DNA of 64,000 bases, from positions 248,001 to 312,000 of the forward strand of contig NZ_FTOM01000002.1 in the NCBI RefSeq assembly GCF_900156695.1. The letters run 5' to 3'. The translations under genes and the position numbers were made by a program. Below the pieces are notes generated by a model that made no database searches, was not told the DNA's origin, and worked only from the letters and a program-made list of their open reading frames with translations. Numbering within the stretch: the stretch's first letter is position 1; each line of letters opens with the position of its first letter. Positions 34,517 to 44,046 of this stretch are shown here, one piece after another. This DNA is from Phaeovulum vinaykumarii. GTDB taxonomy: Bacteria > Pseudomonadota > Alphaproteobacteria > Rhodobacterales > Rhodobacteraceae.

Positions 34517-36016
34517 TCAGTCCATCGGCTTGAAGTTGAAGGCCGAGCCTTCCTTGATGCCCGACGGCCAGCGCGAGGTGACCGTCTTGGTCCGGGTGTA
34601 GAAGCGGAAGGCATCGGGGCCGTGCTGGTTCAGGTCGCCGAAGCCCGATTTCTTCCAGCCGCCGAAGGTGTGATAGGCCAGCGGCACCGGGATCGGCACG
34701 TTGATCCCCACCATCCCGATGTTGATCCGGTGCGCGAAATCGCGCGCGGTGTCGCCGTCGCGGGTGAAGATCGCGGTGCCGTTGCCGTATTCGTGGTCCA
34801 TGGCGTAGGACAGCGCCTCCTCGTAGCTGTCGGCGCGCATGCACGACAGCACCGGGCCGAAGATCTCCTGCTTGTAGATCTCCATGTCGCGGGTCACGTT
34901 GTCAAACAGCGTCGGGCCCACGAAGAAGCCGTTCTCATAGCCCTGAAGCTGGAAGTTGCGCCCGTCCATGACCAGCGTGGCGCCCTGTTCGACCCCCGAG
35001 GTGATGAGACCCTTGACGCGCTCGAGCGCGGCACCCGTCACCAGCGGGCCGTAATCGACATCGTTGCCGGCGGTCCAGGGGCCGACCTTCAGCTTCTCGA
35101 TGCGCGGCACCAGCTTCTCGATCAGCGCATCGGCCGTGGCCTTGCCCACCGGCACCGCGACCGAGATCGCCATGCAGCGTTCGCCCGCCGCGCCATAGCC
35201 CGCACCCACCAGCGCGTCGGCCGCCTGGTCGAGGTCGGCATCGGGCATGATGATCATGTGGTTCTTGGCGCCGCCGAAGCATTGCACGCGCTTGCCGTTG
35301 GCGCAGCCGCGGCTGTAGATGTATTCCGCGATCGGGGTCGAGCCGACGAAGCCCACCGCCTGGATGGTCGGGTTGTCAAGGATGGCGTCGACCGATTCCT
35401 TGTCGCCGTTGATGACCTGAAGCACGCCGTCGGGCAGCCCCGCTTCCTGGAGCAGCGCCGCCAGCATCAGCGGCACCGACGGGTCGCGTTCGCTGGGTTT
35501 CAGGATGAAGGCGTTACCGGCCGACAGCGCCGGGCCCATCTTCCACAGCGGGATCATGGCGGGGAAGTTGAACGGCGTGATGCCCGCGGCCACGCCCAGC
35601 GGCTGGCGCAGCGAATACATGTCGATGCCGGGGCCGGCGGCATCGGTGAATTCGCCCTTCAGCAGATGCGGGGCGCCGATGCAGAACTCGATCACCTCAA
35701 GCCCGCGCTGCACGTCGCCCTTGGCATCGGGGAAGGTCTTGCCGTGTTCGGCCGACAGCGCCTCGGCCAGCTTGTCCATGTCGCGGTTGATGAGCCGCAC
35801 GAATTCCATCATCACCCGCGCGCGCCGCTGCGGGTTGGTCGCGCCCCAGGCGATCTGGGCGCGGGCGGCATCGGCCACCGCGGCGTCCATCTCGGCGGTC
35901 GAGGCCAGCGCCACGCGCGCCTGCACCTCGCCCGTGGCGGGGTTGAAGACATCGGCAAAGCGGCCCGACGTGCCCGCCACCAGCTTGCCGTTGATCCAAT
36001 GTCCGATCTCTTTCAT
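34517..36016 (-). CDS. mmsA: Methylmalonate-semialdehyde dehydrogenase (CoA-acylating)
   Basis: Converts methylmalonate semialdehyde to propionyl-CoA with CoA and NAD. It has 499 residues of the aldehyde-dehydrogenase fold. The ITPFNFPAMIPLWK segment, the FVGSTPIAEYIY cofactor loop and the nucleophile C281 in GERCMAIS are typical of the MmsA branch. I start it at 36016 (MKEIGHWINGK); an in-frame ATG 32 codons earlier lies inside the regulator's control region. It is the first gene of the valine catabolic operon, divergent from a LysR gene. Confidence 0.96.
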   Translation of the reverse strand: MKEIGHWINGKLVAGTSGRFADVFNPATGEVQARVALASTAEMDAAVADAARAQIAWGATNPQRRARVMMEFVRLINRDMDKLAEALSAEHGKTFPDAKGDVQRGLEVIEFCIGAPHLLKGEFTDAAGPGIDMYSLRQPLGVAAGITPFNFPAMIPLWKMGPALSAGNAFILKPSERDPSVPLMLAALLQEAGLPDGVLQVINGDKESVDAILDNPTIQAVGFVGSTPIAEYIYSRGCANGKRVQCFGGAKNHMIIMPDADLDQAADALVGAGYGAAGERCMAISVAVPVGKATADALIEKLVPRIEKLKVGPWTAGNDVDYGPLVTGAALERVKGLITSGVEQGATLVMDGRNFQLQGYENGFFVGPTLFDNVTRDMEIYKQEIFGPVLSCMRADSYEEALSYAMDHEYGNGTAIFTRDGDTARDFAHRINIGMVGINVPIPVPLAYHTFGGWKKSGFGDLNQHGPDAFRFYTRTKTVTSRWPSGIKEGSAFNFKPMD

Positions 36017-36072
36017 GGGTGTCCTCCCTGTGGTCCGCTTTCCACGGTCGGGCGCAGGATAGGCTTGCAGAA

Positions 36073-36119
36073 TTGCGCCGCAAACAGGAAGATTGGCAAA
36101 GGTATGCTGCATTTTTGCA
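36073..36119. promoter_or_regulatory. Candidate operator between mmsA and the LysR gene
   Basis: The 125-base divergent gap holds two palindromes: TTGCGCCGCAA (36073-36083) and TGCA-TTTT-TGCA (36108-36119). Their position between a LysR gene and the operon it faces suggests binding sites. This is inference. Confidence 0.45.
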
Positions 36120-36141
36120 AAGGGGGCCCGAGGGCGCGCGC

Positions 36142-37068
36142 ATGCAGGACTGGGACGATCTGAAGGTGTTTCTGGCGGTGGCGCGGGCGGAAACGCTGTC
36201 GGGTGCGGGGCGGCGGCTGCGCTGCGATGCGGCCACCGTGGGGCGGCGCATCGCCCGGCTGGAACAGGCGTTGGGGGCGGAATTGTTCCTGCGCTCGGTC
36301 CAGGGCTATGCGCTGACCGATGCCGGCGCGCGGCTCCTGCCGCATGCCGAGGCCGCCGAGGGCGCGATGCAGGCCGCGACCGAGGATCTGGGCGGGGCCG
36401 CGGGCGAATTGTCGGGCCAGCTGCGCATCGGTGCGCCCGACGGCTGCGCCAATTTCCTGCTGCCGCAGGTCTGCGCCCGGCTCTCGGATGCCCATCCCGG
36501 TCTCGAGATCCAGATCGTGGCGCTGCCGCGGGTCTTCAACCTCTCCAAGCGCGAGGCCGATATGGCCATCGGGGTCTCGCCGCCTGCGGCGGGGCGGCTG
36601 GTGGTGCAGCGGCTGGCGGACTACCACCTGCATCTGGCGGGGCATGCCGATTACCTGGCGCGCCACCCTCCGATCCGCGGGCTGGCGGATCTGCGCGGGC
36701 ACCGGATGATCGGCTATATCCCCGACATGATCTTCGACAAGGAACTGGATTACCTGGCCGAGACCGGGGCCGAGACGGTGGGGCTGGGCTCGAATTCGGT
36801 GCCGGTGCAGTTAATGGCGGTGCGGGCGGGGGCGGGGCTGGCGATCGTGCATGATTTCGCGCTGCCCTTCGCGCCGGGGGTGCGCCGGGTGCTGACCGAC
36901 CGGCTGTCGCTCAAGCGCAGCTTCTGGCTGATCCGCCACGCCGATGACCGCCGCTCGGACCGGCTGACGCGGCTGGCCGAGGCCCTGGCGCAGGGCGTGC
37001 GCCGCGAGGTGGCGCGCCTCGAGGCCGAGGTTCTCGCCGGCGAACACACCGCCTCTCCCGCGCCCTGA
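36142..37068 (+). CDS. LysR-family transcriptional regulator
   Basis: A 308-residue regulator with an N-terminal winged helix-turn-helix (about residues 1-60; SGAGRRLRCDAATVGRRIARLE is the recognition region) and a substrate-binding domain from about residue 88. The ATG at 36142 gives the standard LysR N-terminus; a longer in-frame start at 36019 would overlap the operator region. It is divergent from mmsA and therefore the likely regulator of the valine/isobutyrate operon; the inducer is not known. Confidence 0.9.
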   Translation: MQDWDDLKVFLAVARAETLSGAGRRLRCDAATVGRRIARLEQALGAELFLRSVQGYALTDAGARLLPHAEAAEGAMQAATEDLGGAAGELSGQLRIGAPDGCANFLLPQVCARLSDAHPGLEIQIVALPRVFNLSKREADMAIGVSPPAAGRLVVQRLADYHLHLAGHADYLARHPPIRGLADLRGHRMIGYIPDMIFDKELDYLAETGAETVGLGSNSVPVQLMAVRAGAGLAIVHDFALPFAPGVRRVLTDRLSLKRSFWLIRHADDRRSDRLTRLAEALAQGVRREVARLEAEVLAGEHTASPAP

Positions 37069-37139
37069 CCCCGCGCCCTGACCCCGCAGGCGTGCCCGTG
37101 GGGCCGGGCCGGGGCGGCGCCGTCCGCCCGCCGCGCCCC

Positions 37140-37170
37140 GCCCCCTCGATGGGGGCGGGCGCGGCTCTCT
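37140..37170 (+). repeat. Palindromic repeat, family 2, copy 1
   Basis: The core GCCCCC-TCGAT-GGGGGC (37140-37156) followed by a GCGCGGCTC segment matches two further copies near 51093 and 53349 (minus). It lies between the LysR and MFS genes. Confidence 0.6.
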
Positions 37171-37265
37171 CGCCCCGGCAGGGCCGCAGAAAACGCGCGG
37201 CAGCCTTGCGCAAGCTGCATGACGTGCCCCGTTGCGCGGGGGCGGGCTTTCGCCTAGGCAAGCGC

Positions 37266-38495
37266 ATGACCCGCACGCTTTCCCTTGATCAGGCGCAAGG
37301 CCTGCCCGCGTGGCGTCGCCCGGCGATGCTGCTTTTCGTCATGGCGGCGGCCCAGCCCATCGCCTTTGCCACCTGGTCGGCGCTTCTCAACAATTTCGTC
37401 ATCGAGGCCGCCCAGTTCACCGGCCGCGAGATCGGCTGGCTGCATTCCGTCCGCGAGATCCCCGGCTTTCTCGCCATCGGCGTGATCGTGGTGCTGTGGG
37501 TCATGCGCGAACAGACGCTGGCGCTCCTGTCTCTGGCGCTCCTCGGCGCGGCCACGGCGGTCACGGCCCTGTTTCCCAGCTTCGGCGGGCTTCTGGTCAC
37601 CACGCTCCTCGCCTCGATCGGCTTTCACTATTTCGAGACGGTGAACCAGTCGCTCCAGCTGCAATGGACCCCCAAGGAGCGCGCCCCCGAGACGCTCGGG
37701 CGGATCGTCGCCATCGGCTCGGGCGCCTCGCTTCTGGCCTATGGCCTGCTGGTGCTGACCTGGACCACCTTCGATCTCAGCTATGGCCTGGTCTACGGGA
37801 TCGCCGGCGGCACCACGCTGATCATCGCCGTTCTGGCCGCGCTTCTCTGGCCGCGCTTCGAGTCCCCCACCGCGCAAAGCCGCCGTTTCGTGCTGCGCCG
37901 GCGCTACTGGCTTTATTACGTGCTGCAATTCCTCTCGGGCGCGCGGCGCCAGATCTTCGTCGTCTTCGCCGCCTTCATGATGGTCGAACGCTTCGGTCTG
38001 GGGGTCGAGACGATCACCGCGCTCTTCATGATCAACTTTGCCGCCAACATGCTGGTGGCGCCCTGGCTGGGCCGGGCCGTGGCGCGCTGGGGCGAGCGGC
38101 GGGCGCTTGCGGTCGAATATGTCGGGCTGATCGCGGTCTTCGCGGCCTATGGCGGGCTTTATCTCTTCGGCTGGGGCGTGGTGTTGGCCGGCTTTCTCTA
38201 TGTCGTCGACCACATGCTCTTTGCGCTGGCCTTCGCGCTCAAGACCTATTTCCAGAAGATCGCCGATCCGGCCGATATCGCGCCCACCTCGGCGGTGGCC
38301 TTCACCATCAACCATATTGCGGCGGTGTTCCTGCCGGCGGCGCTGGGCTATCTGTGGCTGGTCTCGCCGGCGGCGGTCTTTGCTTTCGCGGCCGGGCTGG
38401 CGGGGATGTCGCTGCTGATGGCGCTTTTGATCCCGCGCGACCCCGCGCCGGGCTATGAGACGATCCTGTCGCGCCCGCGCCCCCAGCTCGCCTGA
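37266..38495 (+). CDS. MFS-family transporter
   Basis: A 409-residue membrane protein with about twelve helices. A basic loop near residues 200-218 ([15 protein letters not shown]) joins the two halves. The loop [13 protein letters not shown] and the [18 protein letters not shown] segment are unlike the classic sugar or drug signatures, so the substrate is unknown. I start it at 37266 ([12 protein letters not shown]); longer in-frame starts lack conservation. It is followed by msrA after 76 bases and may share its transcript. Confidence 0.85.
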
Positions 38496-38571
38496 CCCAG
38501 CGCGCCTGACCCGGCTGGACAGACCGGCCGCGGCGCCTATCTCTCGGGCAGATGCACGAGGAGGTGCCGCC

Positions 38572-39207
38572 ATGTTCGGTCTGCGCAAGATGTCCACCCT
38601 GCCCACGCCCCAGGATGCCCTGCCGGGGCGCGAAACGCCCATGCCCCTGCCGCATCCGCATGTCGTCTTCGGCCGCCCGCTCGATGCGCCGGTGCCCGAG
38701 GGGCTGGCCCAGGCCACCTTCGGGATGGGCTGTTTCTGGGGTGTCGAACGTCTGTTCTGGACGCAGCCGGGCGTGTGGCTGACGGCGGCGGGCTATGCCG
38801 GGGGCGCGACCCCCAACCCCACCTACCGCGAGGTCTGCTCGGGCCGGACCGGCCATGCCGAGGTGGTGCGGCTGGTCCATGACCCGGCGGTGATCGGCTA
38901 TGACCGGCTGCTGCGGCTGTTCTGGGAGGGGCACGACCCCACCCAGGGCATGCGCCAGGGCAACGATACGGGCACGCAATATCGGTCGGTCATCCACACC
39001 CACGACGCGGCCCAGGCCGAGGCGGCCGCCGCCAGCGCCGCGGCCTATGGTGCGCGTCTGGCCGCGGCGGGGTTGGGGCCGGTCACGACCGAGATCCGTC
39101 CGGCGCCGCCCTTCTATTTCGCCGAGGACGAGCACCAGCAATATCTGGCCAAGCATCCGGGTGGCTATTGCGGGTTGCGCGGCACCGGGGTGGCCTGCGC
39201 GTCGTGA
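38572..39207 (+). CDS. msrA: Peptide methionine-S-sulfoxide reductase
   Basis: Repairs S-methionine sulfoxide in proteins. It has 211 residues with the catalytic C54 in [10 protein letters not shown] and likely resolving cysteines at C200 and C209 near the C-terminus. The conserved [23 protein letters not shown] block is intact. The start at 38572 follows GAGGTGCCGCC. No terminator follows closely; the next 277 bases carry only the terminator of the opposing small gene. Confidence 0.96.
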
Positions 39208-39343
39208 TCCCGCGCGCGGGGGGCCTCAGGGCAGGCACGGCCTTGCGTCGCGGCCCGCGCCGGGCACGGGGGACGCGCGGGGCCGCCATGGGCGCGCGAA
39301 AAGGCGCGGTCTGGGCCGTCTGGGGGCAAAAAGGGAAGAAGGC

Positions 39344-39369
39344 AAAAAAACAGGGGCCTTGCGGCCCCC
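39344..39369 (-). terminator. Terminator of the 44-residue gene
   Basis: On the minus strand GGGGCC-GCAA-GGCCCC is followed by TG and seven T (39344-39350 as A on the plus strand). It lies about 115 bases beyond the stop of the small minus-strand gene. The rest of 39208-39484 holds nothing recognisable. Confidence 0.8.
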
Positions 39370-39484
39370 GCGTGTCTCCGGTGAAGGAAGACGCGTGCTG
39401 AAGACTGGCGTCTTTGCGCCATGCTCCCGAAGGCTTGGCAGGGGCCGGTCTGGCGGCGCCCAGTGTGGCCTTCAGGTGGGGCCT

Positions 39485-39619
39485 TCAGTTGATGCGGCGC
39501 TCTACCGGACGGCCGGCATAGAGGCGATTGTCCACGCGCACGATGACCCGGCCATCGTCTTCGCGTTTTTCGAAGATACCCTGGATCGAGATCGAGCCGA
39601 CAACAACAGTCTGAAGCAT
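39485..39619 (-). CDS. Very small conserved-looking protein, 44 residues
   Basis: ATG at 39619 and TGA at 39485-39487 enclose 44 codons. The protein begins MLQTVVVGSISIQGIF, continues with a charged turn (EKREDDGR) and a second strand pair (VIVRVDNRLYAGRPVERR). The alternating pattern predicts a small beta-structure. GGAGG lies seven bases before the ATG, an A/T-rich promoter-like region lies upstream and a good terminator downstream. I recall similar short proteins in Rhodobacterales but cannot verify that. No function is proposed. Confidence 0.7.
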   Translation of the reverse strand: MLQTVVVGSISIQGIFEKREDDGRVIVRVDNRLYAGRPVERRIN

Positions 39620-39650
39620 CACGGTTCCTCCACGAGATGGTCAGACAGGG

Positions 39651-39678
39651 GTAATAGTCAAACCTTAACAAATCGCAA
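39651..39678 (-). promoter_or_regulatory. Promoter candidate for the 44-residue gene
   Basis: On the minus strand TTGCGA (39673-39678) and TATTAC (39651-39656) are separated by 16 bases within an A/T-rich stretch about 35 bases upstream of the small gene's ATG. Confidence 0.5.
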
Positions 39679-39809
39679 ATGAAACTGTCGCATTGATGCC
39701 ATCTTTTGGACAATGAGGCGAAGATGTCGCGCGCAAATCGGGCATTTTCTGCACGCGCAAAGGGATCAGGCGGCTTTTCCTTGACAGGATGCTGCGCGGC
39801 AGCGCGATT

Positions 39810-40547
39810 TCAGCCGGCCAGAAGCGGGTCTTCGGCCACCCGCACCAGCCGCGTCAGATCCGACAGCCGCTCGCGTTGGCGACCGTCGGCGTCAAAGTTC
39901 TCGGGTGCGAGCCAGGCCTCGAACGCCGCCGCGATCCCCGGCCAATCGGCATCGGTGGCGGCAAACCAGGCGGTGTCGCGGTTGCGCCCCTTGACCACGG
40001 CGGCCTGCCGGAAAGTGCCCTCATAGCTCAGCCCCAGCCGCGCCGCCGCCCGCCGCGACGGCAGGTTCAGCGCATCGCATTTCCATTCGAACCGCCGATA
40101 GCCCGCCCCGAAGGCCCAGCCCATCGCCAGCGCCATCGCCTCGGTGGCGGCCCGCGAACGTTGCAGCGCCGGCGACAATGCGATGTGGCCCAGCTCGATC
40201 ACGCCATGCGCGGGCGTGATGCGCAGGAAGGACAGCACCCCTTGCGCGGCCTCGGCCGTGGCCAGGTCGCGGATCGCGTAGAAGCAGGGATCGGGCAGCG
40301 CGGCCATCTCGCGCAGCCAGCGCAGATAGCCCGCCTCGGACCCGAAAGGACCATAGGGAAGATAGTCCCAGATCCTGTCGTCGGCCGAAAAGGCCCGGAA
40401 CAGCGCATCGCCATGGCGGTCGGCGTCCAGCCGTTCCAGCCGCGCATGGCGCCCCTCGAGAACCGCCGGACCGGGCGGGGGCGGGGGCGTGAACCCCGGC
40501 ACCGGCGCCCCGAAACGGGTTTCGACGCCTGCTGTCCTGTCGCCCAT
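39810..40547 (-). CDS. GNAT-family N-acetyltransferase (RimJ/RimL-like)
   Basis: A 245-residue protein with the acetyl-CoA fold of the RimJ/RimL-type branch. LEGRHARLERLDADRHGDALFRAF forms the entry, FGAGYRRFEWKCDALNLPSRRAA is the region around the conserved Asn/Ser-Arg, and RLGLSYEGTFRQA closes the domain. I start it at 40547, after a GAAGGGGG ribosome site. The acceptor is unknown; relatives acetylate small molecules or protein N-termini. It is transcribed alone. Confidence 0.88.
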   Translation of the reverse strand: MGDRTAGVETRFGAPVPGFTPPPPPGPAVLEGRHARLERLDADRHGDALFRAFSADDRIWDYLPYGPFGSEAGYLRWLREMAALPDPCFYAIRDLATAEAAQGVLSFLRITPAHGVIELGHIALSPALQRSRAATEAMALAMGWAFGAGYRRFEWKCDALNLPSRRAAARLGLSYEGTFRQAAVVKGRNRDTAWFAATDADWPGIAAAFEAWLAPENFDADGRQRERLSDLTRLVRVAEDPLLAG

Positions 40548-40724
40548 GGCCGCCCCCTTCCGCATGTTCACCCAAGGCCGCAGGCTAGCGCGCCGCGGGG
40601 CGGTTGGAAATGCCCCCGAAGCGACCCGCGCCTTTCCCATTTTCGCCCCATTCCCCCGCCAGCGTCAGAGCCCGGAAGGCCCGCTGCCACGGGCCGAGGG
40701 ACGCGACCTGAAGGGAGAGAGTGA

Positions 40725-40859
40725 ATGAAAGACAGTTTCCTGCGGATCGCTGCGGCCGAATGGGTGCCGCAAGCCGCGCATCCGGTCCTGTTCGGCCTGG
40801 GCGGCCTCAGCCTGGGCGTGTCGATCGTGGCGACCGTCTCGCGCGTTCTCGCCGGCTGA
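40725..40859 (+). CDS. Possible 44-residue single-helix membrane protein
   Basis: ATG at 40725, TGA at 40857-40859. A short amphipathic start (MKDSFLRIAAAEW) leads to one hydrophobic helix (HPVLFGLGGLSLGVSIVATV) and a short basic end. GGGAGAGAG lies just upstream, third positions are strongly G/C like the neighbours, and a hairpin follows at 40910. No similarity is recognised. It could be a chance open frame. Confidence 0.4.
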   Translation: MKDSFLRIAAAEWVPQAAHPVLFGLGGLSLGVSIVATVSRVLAG

Positions 40860-40909
40860 GCCGCGCGCCCGTCCTCGCGGCCAGAGCCGTGCGCCCGTCG
40901 CTGTCCCCG

Positions 40910-40938
40910 AAGGCCCCGCCCCGCGCGGGGCCTTTCGT
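40910..40938 (+). terminator. Terminator candidate after the small membrane ORF
   Basis: GGCCCCG (40912-40918) pairs with CGGGGCC (40926-40932) around a 7-base loop, followed by TTTCG. The T run is short, so confidence is moderate. Confidence 0.55.
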
Positions 40939-40989
40939 CGTTCCGGCCCTTCCTTGCCCGCAACGTCCCCCTGCTGCGGTTGCGCCCAC

Positions 40990-41018
40990 TTGCCCGCCTC
41001 CCGGTGCGCTCCTATAAG
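40990..41018 (+). promoter_or_regulatory. Promoter candidate for ileS
   Basis: TTGCCC (40990-40995), a 17-base spacer and TATAAG (41013-41018) lie about 140 bases before the ileS start. The leader also contains the perfect palindrome CTGACGCGTCAG (41072-41083). Apart from the terminator at 40910 these are the only elements seen in the 301 bases from 40860 to 41160. Confidence 0.6.
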
Positions 41019-41160
41019 GCGGTCATGACCCGGCTCTGTCTCCCCGTTTCCCGAATTACCGGCCCGGCGCTCTGACGCGTCAGGGTTGCCGGGATGCCCC
41101 TTGCCGAGCCGCGGGCGCGCGTCGCGCCCCCTCCTTGCCCTTTCCGCTGCGAGAAACCCG

Positions 41161-44046
41161 ATGTGCGCCGATACGCCCGACTATCGTGAGACCGTCTTCC
41201 TGCCCGAAACCGACTTTCCCATGCGTGCCGCGCTGCCGGCGCGCGAACCCGAATGGCTGGCCCGCTGGGAGCGCATCGGCATCTACGACCGCCTGCGCGA
41301 GAAGGAGGGCCGCCCCGATTTCGTGCTGCATGACGGCCCGCCCTATGCCAACGGGCATCTGCATATCGGCCACGCGCTGAACAAGACGATCAAGGACATC
41401 ATCGTGCGCAGCCACCAGATGCTGGGGCACGACAGCCGCTACGTGCCCGGCTGGGACTGTCACGGCCTGCCGATCGAATGGAAGATCGAGGAGCAATACC
41501 GCGCCGCCGGCAAGGACAAGGATCAGGTTCCCGTCATCGACTTCCGCCAGGAATGCCGCCGCTTCGCCGAGGGCTGGGTCGACATCCAGCGCGCGGAATT
41601 CAAGCGTCTGGGCGTCTATGGTAATTGGGAAGACCCCTATCTGACCATGGATTTCCACGCCGAGTCGGTGATCGCGGCGGAATTCATGAAGCTGTTGATG
41701 AACGGCGCGCTCTATCAGGGCTCGAAACCCGTGATGTGGTCGCCGGTCGAGAAGACCGCGCTGGCCGAGGCCGAGGTCGAATATCATGATCACACCAGCC
41801 ACACGATCTGGGTGCGCTTCCGCCCGGTCGCGGGGCTTGAGGACGCCTCGGTGGTGATCTGGACCACGACGCCCTGGACCATCCCGCAGAACCGCGCCGT
41901 CGCCTATGGCCCGGACATCGCCTATGGCCTCTATCGCGTCGACACCGCGGCCGAGAATTCCAGCGCGCAGCCGGGCGAGACGCTGATCCTGGCCGATACC
42001 CTGGCGCAAAGCGTGATGACCGCGGCGCGGGTCGAGGGCTTTACCCGCCTGCGCGACGTGGCCACCGCCGAATTCGAGGGCGTGATCCTGCGCCATCCCT
42101 ATGCCGGGGTCGAAGGGGGCAACGGCGAATGGGATTACGACGTGCCCATGCTGCCGGGCGAGCATGTGACCGATGACGCCGGCACGGGCTTTGTCCATAC
42201 CGCGCCCAGCCACGGTGACGACGACTATCAGCTGGGCCTGAAATTCGGCCTGCCGATGACCTATAACGTCATGGAAGACGGCGCCTATCGGGCCGACCTG
42301 CCGCTCTTTGCCGGTCAGCAGATCATCACCCCCGAGGGCAAGGAAGGCCCGGCCAATGTCTCGAACATCAAGCAGCTGGCCTATGCCGGCGCGCTTCTGG
42401 CCAAGGGCAAGCTCAAGCATTCCTACCCGCATTCCTGGCGCTCCAAGGCGCCGGTGATCTTCCGCAACACGCCGCAATGGTTCGCAGCCATCGACCACCG
42501 TCTCGAGGACGGCCAGGGCGATCTGGGCGACACCATCCGCACCCGCGCGTTGAAATCCATCGAGGAGCTGGTCAGCTTCACCCCCGCCACGGGCAAGAAC
42601 CGCCTGCATTCGATGATCGCGGCGCGTCCCGATTGGGTGCTGTCGCGCCAGCGCGCCTGGGGTGTGCCGCTGACCTGCTTCACCAAAAAGGGCGCCAAGC
42701 CGACCGACCCCGATTACCTTCTGCGCAACGCCGAGGTGAACGCCCGCATCATCAAAGCCTTCGAGGAAAAGGGCGCCGATGTCTGGTACGAGGCCGACTT
42801 CAAGGCCCGCGTTCTGGACGGGCTGGCCGATCCCGACCAGTATGAACAGGTCTTTGACGTGCTCGACGTGTGGTTCGACAGCGGCTCGACCCATGCCTTC
42901 GTGCTGCGCGACCGCGCCGACGGCACCCCCGACGGCATCGCCGATGTCTATCTCGAGGGCACCGACCAGCACCGCGGCTGGTTCCATTCCTCGCTTCTCC
43001 AGGCCTGCGGCACCAAGGGGCGTGCGCCCTACCGCAACGTGGTCACCCACGGCTTCACGCTCGACGAGAAGGGCATGAAGATGTCCAAATCCGTCGGCAA
43101 CACCGTGGCCCCCCAGGAGGTGATCGCCGAATATGGCGCCGATATCCTGCGGCTCTGGGTGGCGCAGTCCGACTATACCGCCGACCAGCGCATCGGACCC
43201 AAGATCCTGAAGGGCACCGCCGACAGCTACCGCCGGCTGCGCAACACGCTGCGCTTCATGCTGGGCGCGCTCAAGGACTTCTCCGAAGACGAACGCGTCG
43301 CCCCCGCAGAGATGCCCGAGCTGGAACGCTGGGTGCTGCACCGTCTGGCCGAGCTCGACGCCGAGGTGGAAGCCCGCTACCGTGCCTTCGACTTCCAGGG
43401 CGTGTTCCAGGCGCTGTTCAACTTCTGCACGGTGGACCTCTCGGCCTTCTACTTCGACATCCGCAAGGACGCGCTCTATTGCGACGCGCCCGACGCCCTG
43501 CGCCGCCGCGCCGCGCGCACGGTGCTGGACCTGCTGTTCTACCGGCTGACGACCTGGCTTGCGCCGATCCTCGTCTTCACCATGGAAGACGTCTGGCTGG
43601 CGCGCTTCCCCTCGGAAACGGGCTCGGTCCACCTCCAGGACTTCCCCAAGACCCCGGCCGATTGGCGCAACCCGGAACTGGCGGCGAAATGGGACGGCAT
43701 CCGCCGCGCCCGCCGCGTGGTCACCGCAGCCCTCGAGCTGCGCCGCACCGCCAAGGAGATCGGCGCCAGCCTCGAGGCCGCGCCCGTCGTCCATGTCGAG
43801 GACAGCGTGCTTCTCGGCGCGCTCCAGGCGGCGGATTTCGCGGATCTGTGCATCACCTCGGATCTGTCGCTCAGCGCCGATCCCGCCCCGGCCGAGGCCT
43901 TCCGCCTCCCCGAGGTGCCGGGCATCGGCGTGGTCTTCGAACGCGCCTCGGGCGAGAAATGCGCCCGCTGCTGGAAGATCCTGCCCGATGTCGGCAGCCA
44001 TGCCCATCCAGGAACCTGCAAGCGCTGTAACGACGTGCTGGGCTGA
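41161..44046 (+). CDS. ileS: Isoleucyl-tRNA synthetase
   Basis: Charges tRNA-Ile; 961 residues. The class I signatures are HIGH (68-71) in PYANGHLHIGHALNK and KMSKS (640-644). The editing domain lies between them. A C-terminal zinc finger uses C934, C937, C953 and C956, and the overall type resembles the E. coli enzyme, which is mupirocin sensitive. I start it at 41161 (MCADTPDYRETVFLPE); an earlier in-frame ATG adds a non-conserved 25 residues. It has its own promoter candidate and a terminator. Confidence 0.97.
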   Translation: MCADTPDYRETVFLPETDFPMRAALPAREPEWLARWERIGIYDRLREKEGRPDFVLHDGPPYANGHLHIGHALNKTIKDIIVRSHQMLGHDSRYVPGWDCHGLPIEWKIEEQYRAAGKDKDQVPVIDFRQECRRFAEGWVDIQRAEFKRLGVYGNWEDPYLTMDFHAESVIAAEFMKLLMNGALYQGSKPVMWSPVEKTALAEAEVEYHDHTSHTIWVRFRPVAGLEDASVVIWTTTPWTIPQNRAVAYGPDIAYGLYRVDTAAENSSAQPGETLILADTLAQSVMTAARVEGFTRLRDVATAEFEGVILRHPYAGVEGGNGEWDYDVPMLPGEHVTDDAGTGFVHTAPSHGDDDYQLGLKFGLPMTYNVMEDGAYRADLPLFAGQQIITPEGKEGPANVSNIKQLAYAGALLAKGKLKHSYPHSWRSKAPVIFRNTPQWFAAIDHRLEDGQGDLGDTIRTRALKSIEELVSFTPATGKNRLHSMIAARPDWVLSRQRAWGVPLTCFTKKGAKPTDPDYLLRNAEVNARIIKAFEEKGADVWYEADFKARVLDGLADPDQYEQVFDVLDVWFDSGSTHAFVLRDRADGTPDGIADVYLEGTDQHRGWFHSSLLQACGTKGRAPYRNVVTHGFTLDEKGMKMSKSVGNTVAPQEVIAEYGADILRLWVAQSDYTADQRIGPKILKGTADSYRRLRNTLRFMLGALKDFSEDERVAPAEMPELERWVLHRLAELDAEVEARYRAFDFQGVFQALFNFCTVDLSAFYFDIRKDALYCDAPDALRRRAARTVLDLLFYRLTTWLAPILVFTMEDVWLARFPSETGSVHLQDFPKTPADWRNPELAAKWDGIRRARRVVTAALELRRTAKEIGASLEAAPVVHVEDSVLLGALQAADFADLCITSDLSLSADPAPAEAFRLPEVPGIGVVFERASGEKCARCWKILPDVGSHAHPGTCKRCNDVLG

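Follow-up and report, generated by a model that had tools for sequence, protein, structure and literature searches.

A 44-codon gene of Phaeovulum vinaykumarii that very probably represents an undescribed family of small Rhodobacteraceae proteins

Of the published proteins we came across, the closest analogue in kind, likened here by its paper's description, is PSHCP, a hyper-conserved protein of 62 residues from Prochlorococcus and marine Synechococcus (PMC4215834). According to its available text, pull-downs recovered PSHCP together with ribosomal protein L2, with PsaD and with a protein resembling Ycf48 (PMC4215834). A search of the open-licence literature, peptide strings included, returned no publication on the 44-residue family presented here, and none that deals with PSHCP together with Tudor. 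The DNA analysed in this work, referred to as the window, is a stretch of 64,000 nt of P. vinaykumarii (NZ_FTOM01000002.1, positions 248,001 to 312,000). One of its frames, of 44 codons, is very probably a genuine protein-coding gene and the window's member of an undescribed protein family of about 40-45 residues. The family occurs in two thirds of the sampled Rhodobacteraceae genera, yet it has no meaningful Pfam match, and on plasmids it is nearly unannotated, going by an incomplete gene table.

Table 1. Features at the locus, in window positions.
Feature	Position	Strand	Remarks
44-codon gene with TGA stop, family-wide small protein	39485..39619	minus	Translation MLQTVVVGSISIQGIFEKREDDGRVIVRVDNRLYAGRPVERRIN; profile, dN/dS, AlphaFold
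GGAGG ribosome-binding site	39627..39631	minus	7 nt 5' of the ATG; from sequence
Promoter-like TTTGC-N6-TTAA, then CTA 7 nt on	39655..39679	minus	Putative function, from sequence
3' untranslated stretch of 113 nt, strongly folded	39372..39484	minus	No known RNA family
Intrinsic-terminator-like hairpin	39343..39371	minus	9 pairs (7 G-C, 2 G-T), loop of 4, then seven T
GNAT acetyltransferase-like ORF (presumed), upstream neighbour	39810..40640	minus	Gap of about 190 nt; ORF list
MsrA-like ORF (presumed), convergent neighbour	38455..39207	plus	ORF list

Conservation of the frame and selection

The minus-strand frame proposed for this locus was correct in coordinates, length and reading frame, as translation confirmed (Table 1). 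With the single window sequence as query, matches were obtained in 21 of the 36 further same-family genomes searched (E up to 0.01, with relatives reaching E = 7.4e-9) and in 0 of 24 genomes from other families of the class. Profile A1, a 22-row alignment with the window protein among its contributors, matched 195 of 295 Rhodobacteraceae genomes, taken as one genome per genus with the own genome included; this count refers to the domain, and at least one genome (G306) has only the fused form described below at that threshold. The other 100 sampled genera gave no match with A1; even within the family, therefore, not every genus has the gene. An order-wide draw yielded matches in 103 of 149 genomes, every one listed under the same family. 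In a class-wide draw four of 240 matched: the own genome, two more from the same family, and one genome with a weak match. This weak match (G548, E = 0.004), located late within a frame of 476 residues, was regarded as chance. Of 219 pattern stretches in a scan of named genomes with A2, a closer subset, 211 were confirmed and 80 kept. Most of these are named Rhodobacteraceae or Rhodobacterales (Defluviimonas, Frigidibacter, Haematobacter, Sulfitobacter, Roseovarius and others); several MAGs labelled just Alphaproteobacteria or Proteobacteria and one Bauldia are also among them. Going by the names of the matching records, the family is largely confined to Rhodobacteraceae. Ten pattern stretches in viral contigs were inspected for phage relatives and none was confirmed.

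Selection was studied in 149 distinct coding sequences from the fetched loci (profile E < 1e-8, length up to 260 nt), a set that takes in plasmid paralogues as well as L168, which is of the fused type but stands free. Over 22 close pairs, none reused, pS was 0.329 and pN 0.035, corresponding to a dN/dS of about 0.08, a figure that describes the family, since the window copy has diverged too far to be tested in pairs. Its nucleotide identity to the collected set is at most 61%, and its protein shares 36-51% identity with 21 aligned relatives. Over all pairs, differences per codon position amounted to 0.66 at the third, 0.35 at the first and 0.28 at the second. The original prediction of a real short protein-coding gene is thus supported by conservation of the frame and by purifying selection, both seen at the level of the family.

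Residues T4, G15, G24 and G37 are invariant (149/149) and Q14 is present in 148 of the 149; the family signature, in family numbering, reads T4, QG at 14-15, G24 and G37-x-P39 within about 40-45 residues. T4, QG, the two glycines and the proline are all retained in the window protein (E = 9.2e-20 with A1, to which it contributes). A cysteine at position 10 (GSC-V-S-V-Q-G) is shared by 131 of 149 sequences and is absent in the window copy through a one-residue deletion, for which reason it was not counted as family-defining. Cysteine-based sensing of sulfur, redox state or metal was considered as a core function but seems unlikely, given that the residue is missing from the window copy and from the 13 domains of the fused type in alignment A3 (see below); such a function may have been lost in those copies. 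Net charge is above zero in 148 of 149 proteins, with a median of +3, and is +2 by hand count in the window copy.

Expression signals and the 3' region

The window's expression signals by themselves would not prove a gene. They had been described as complete, which is too strong a word, since only the ribosome-binding site is clear; there is no more than a hint of a promoter, and the terminator is 113 nt off. The GGAGG motif is present, 7 nt 5' of the ATG (Table 1). The frame is also opened by a GTG one codon 5' of the ATG, and the family alignment favours the ATG, with a start codon at that position in 149 of 149 sequences (142 ATG, 4 GTG, 3 TTG). In 136 of 149 homologues an SD-like motif lies within the last 20 nt 5' of the start, the commonest being GGGGA (96), and GGGGAG is found in 68 of 148 homologue upstream regions versus 5.9 expected from shuffles. 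No tRNA or tmRNA was detected in the window.

The A/T-rich stretch that had been put forward as a promoter candidate is present, but a promoter scan of 38400-40800 returned no sigma-70-type promoter. The motif TTTGC-N6-TTAA (39665-39679 in the window) recurs in 8 of 148 homologue upstream regions, the window included (0.36 expected), TTTG-N7-TTAA-N7-10-CTA in 6 of 148 (0.02 expected) and TTAAC-N6-9-CTA in 15 of 148 (0.66 expected); these patterns were picked post hoc from the sequences, and related sequences were counted separately, which inflates the counts. As a promoter element, the recurring TTTGC-N6-TTAA is only suggestive. Across the 112 gaps between mutT and a homologue, the sigma-70-like pattern was not enriched (4 versus 2.7 expected), and CtrA-like paired sites (TTAA-N7-TTAA) were found in two (0.7 expected). 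Two further deviations were recorded in this material: TTGAC is depleted in the 112 mutT gaps (3 versus 14.5 expected), and GTTAAC is enriched in the 112 intergenic gaps 5' of homologues (20 versus 3.2 expected).

A terminator-like hairpin with seven T does exist downstream, but it lies 113 nt past the stop and not immediately behind it. It is the sole minus-strand site of its kind in the surrounding 2.4 kb, where two terminator-like sites, one per strand, were found versus 1.7 expected from shuffles; the window hairpin taken alone is therefore weak evidence. Among homologues, a terminator-like hairpin lies within 150 nt 3' of the stop in 107 of 147 cases versus 11 of 147 after one shuffle each, at a median distance of 29 nt after the stop. 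Where infB converges, the terminator may serve both genes. The region 39340-39490, terminator included, is more stably folded than shuffles (z-score -3.73). No Rfam family exceeded its threshold at the gene, and LOOT RNA (RF03000) reached 18.4 bits (E = 0.75) at the window locus, under the gathering score of 46.4. In 20 loci no LOOT match was listed at E up to 1, which is a weak control because E-values scale with the amount of sequence searched and even the match of the window is missing there. At L015, a COG3860 RNA motif over its gathering score was found at 2265-2318, close to one homologue.

Genomic place, plasmid paralogues and fused forms

The usual order is mutT, the gene, a terminator and then infB in the opposite orientation. 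A context motif test, run on the 145 loci flanked by 600 nt or more on both sides (4 were dropped), found mutT upstream in 112, convergent infB downstream in 121, both in 100 and neither in 12. Among those last 12 are the window, five copies on Sulfitobacter plasmids, L168 and also L162, where a mutT-like gene is present with a variant motif. The neighbours of the window gene, one of which we take to be acetyltransferase-like (GNAT) and the other, from its GCFWG motif, MsrA-like, are both foreign to the family's usual context. In the own genome the usual mutT is located at C18:55106 and the gene at C18:287488, a distance of about 232 kb. An infB end motif is missing from the 2.1 kb downstream of this mutT, and a 3.5-kb stretch near it yielded no remnant of the gene in a sensitive profile search (best -1.7 bits). 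Since neither is left behind mutT, the window gene has most likely moved from that place, with its frame kept intact. In two other moved copies (L156 and L208) the upstream gene is presumably pnp, for polynucleotide phosphorylase. No functional tie to infB was drawn, because the gene is able to leave that place.

A consensus-like query matched 14 plasmid records, 11 from Sulfitobacter, two from Paracoccus and one from Thioclava. The claim that such genes are missed holds on the plasmids in so far as the PLSDB feature table, which is incomplete by its own statement, has no feature under 13 of the 14 homologues. Among the eight plasmid neighbourhoods that were opened, genes of the VanZ family lie near the paralogue in three, mannose-1-phosphate guanylyltransferase in four, cysN in two and YjbH/YjbF in one; two regions have none of these genes, and one region is the sulfate-binding fusion. 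Several plasmid paralogues are located near exopolysaccharide genes. Four copies from Sulfitobacter plasmids (L190, L191, L192, L194) have in common a C-terminal tail, ending in SSH(VV/EM)LAVS, that is absent from the 22 members of A1.

In some genomes, second and weaker profile matches fall within long frames. Fifteen of these fusion loci, from 15 genomes, were read; 14 are frames of 384-593 residues and one (L063) is cut short at 263. In each of the 15 a signal-peptide-like stretch comes after the domain, and sulfate-binding-protein sequence after that. The sulfate-binding part was identified by profile in L183 (TIGR00971 and PRK10752, E < 1e-119) and confirmed in the same manner in G026, G034, G070, G089 and, outside the 15, G021; for the remaining fusion loci its identity comes from shared sequence. 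On the Thioclava plasmid the annotated gene itself starts with the domain, preceded by an Rrf2 regulator and followed by cysT, cysW and cysA. Alignment A3, with 13 rows of the fused domain, matches A1 with a probability of 99.1%, and its model folds like the free form (pLDDT 93.7). No ATG occurs between the domain and the mature part in any of 14 fusion loci examined. L183 has no GTG or TTG there either, whereas the other 13 do, and a shorter start is possible in them. In five hand-picked fusion pairs the synonymous rate exceeded the nonsynonymous one (pS 0.13-0.65, pN 0.01-0.29).

Searching with A3, at least 16 of the 295 family genomes have, among the matches listed, one in a frame of 380 or more residues; 13 of these are among the loci read, the others being G296, G155 (a partial match) and G145. 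From the side of the sulfate-binding protein, 120 genomes gave 15 TIGR00971 loci over the cut-off, with the domain found by profile in five and absent in ten. One sulfate-binding protein (L234, G142:C363) carries before its signal-peptide-like stretch a long N-terminal segment that the domain profile does not match. L168 (G101:C5:33682-33804) is a free-standing, stop-terminated copy of the sulfate-binding-type domain, and in its genome the sulfate-binding protein match is partial and contains a stop. In the open-licence literature we found nothing on an N-terminal extension of the sulfate-binding protein in Rhodobacter. The architecture, in which a folded domain not expected to be exported is joined to an exported protein, is unusual, and sulfate uptake offers a concrete handle on the role of the domain.

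Predicted fold, possible roles and related systems

The regular beta-like pattern noticed in the short protein is consistent with the AlphaFold model, computed with A1, which predicts a four-stranded all-beta mini-barrel (pLDDT 92.9, pTM 0.68). The best Foldseek matches in the PDB were BirA C-terminal domains and Caulobacter Hfq (E = 0.15-0.2, with 0.18 as the best value for Hfq, TM about 0.55). VIA listed a chain of an IscB complex (Z = 4.3), Tudor, BirA and integrase C-terminal domains (Z = 3.3-4.0) and an Lsm4 chain (3.3); by its own note such Z values possibly reflect just a common arrangement, and a fold missing from the VIA or Foldseek lists is no counter-evidence. A viral structure library gave as best match an unnamed 57-residue protein (E = 0.018, TM = 0.75). 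The modelled barrel may be called loosely SH3/Sm/Tudor-like, and because the structural matches are weak and generic, the fold is uninformative about a ligand. At the sequence level, Pfam and NCBIfam assigned the window protein to no family at E up to 1. For the 22 members of A1, the best Pfam match was E = 0.0041, in two (DUF5983_N), and PHROGs gave nothing better than E = 0.098, in one; among solved structures the best relative by sequence reached E = 0.036, with a best stretch of 12 residues.

We would picture the protein as soluble and cytoplasmic, working as a small, mildly basic SH3/Sm-like adaptor. Binding to RNA or to the ribosome is tentatively proposed as its most likely mechanism. 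In the sulfate-binding proteins, processing of the signal peptide would leave the domain at the cytoplasmic side, where it would act prior to or during export. A small, usually basic barrel that exists as a free cytoplasmic protein and also precedes a signal peptide fits an adaptor in contact with RNA, the ribosome or a membrane partner. Ranked next, and in our judgement unlikely, is a protein-protein adaptor at the inner membrane face, engaged in transport, export or envelope polysaccharide and not in RNA binding. The position of the domain before the signal peptide speaks for it, as does the presence of VanZ, mannose-1-phosphate guanylyltransferase, YjbH/YjbF or cysN within about 4 kb in five of the eight plasmid regions. 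The chromosomal copies, however, sit elsewhere, by mutT and infB, two of the opened plasmid regions lack such genes, and neighbourhood is no proof of function. In a more far-reaching view, each exported sulfate-binding molecule might leave behind, or first be controlled by, a small cytoplasmic regulatory domain, and the free and fused forms might recognise one common partner (the ribosome, RNA or the export machinery), linking sulfur uptake or envelope polysaccharide to translation; we regard this as speculative and rather improbable.

The locus could also be mainly an RNA, with an incidental or auxiliary frame and the folded 3' stretch as a small regulatory RNA, comparable to dual-function RNAs; the stability of the 3' region over shuffles, measured with the terminator included, and the weak LOOT RNA match would agree with this, and a coding sRNA, Pos19, is reported for Rhodobacter. 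Conservation at the amino-acid level with a dN/dS of about 0.08 makes it very improbable; moreover, the LOOT match stays far under the gathering score and has no counterpart in the 20 loci of the weak control, and the terminator of the relatives, often only some 29 nt past the stop, leaves little room for a 3' RNA. Frames of this size are common in such a G+C-rich stretch, where 66 ORFs of at least 30 aa overlap 36000-43000, and the sigma-70 scan found no promoter, as would be expected of an open frame and signals that arose by chance; but matches in 195 of 295 genera, the selection on the codons and the presence of the same domain within an annotated protein refute a chance origin, whose probability we consider negligible.

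The window protein can be set beside three described systems. Some Rhodobacteraceae members of the sulfate ABC transporter substrate-binding protein family (TIGR00971, PRK10752) share a homologous N-terminal domain, whereas the window gene stops after the 44-residue domain, with no solute-binding part. The small beta-barrels (Sm/Hfq, SH3, Tudor, BirA C-terminal) resemble the model loosely (TM about 0.5-0.6, Z at most 4.3), but the window protein is shorter, with about 40 residues in four strands, is free of helices and has none of their Pfam matches. PSHCP, as its paper describes it in the available text, is likewise clade-restricted, very short and basic, with four predicted beta strands, a weak SH3-like similarity, purifying selection and neighbours that hint at translation, while it differs in an extra predicted helix, a length of 62 residues, a far stronger basic character (pI 11.3) and 100% conservation (PMC4215834).
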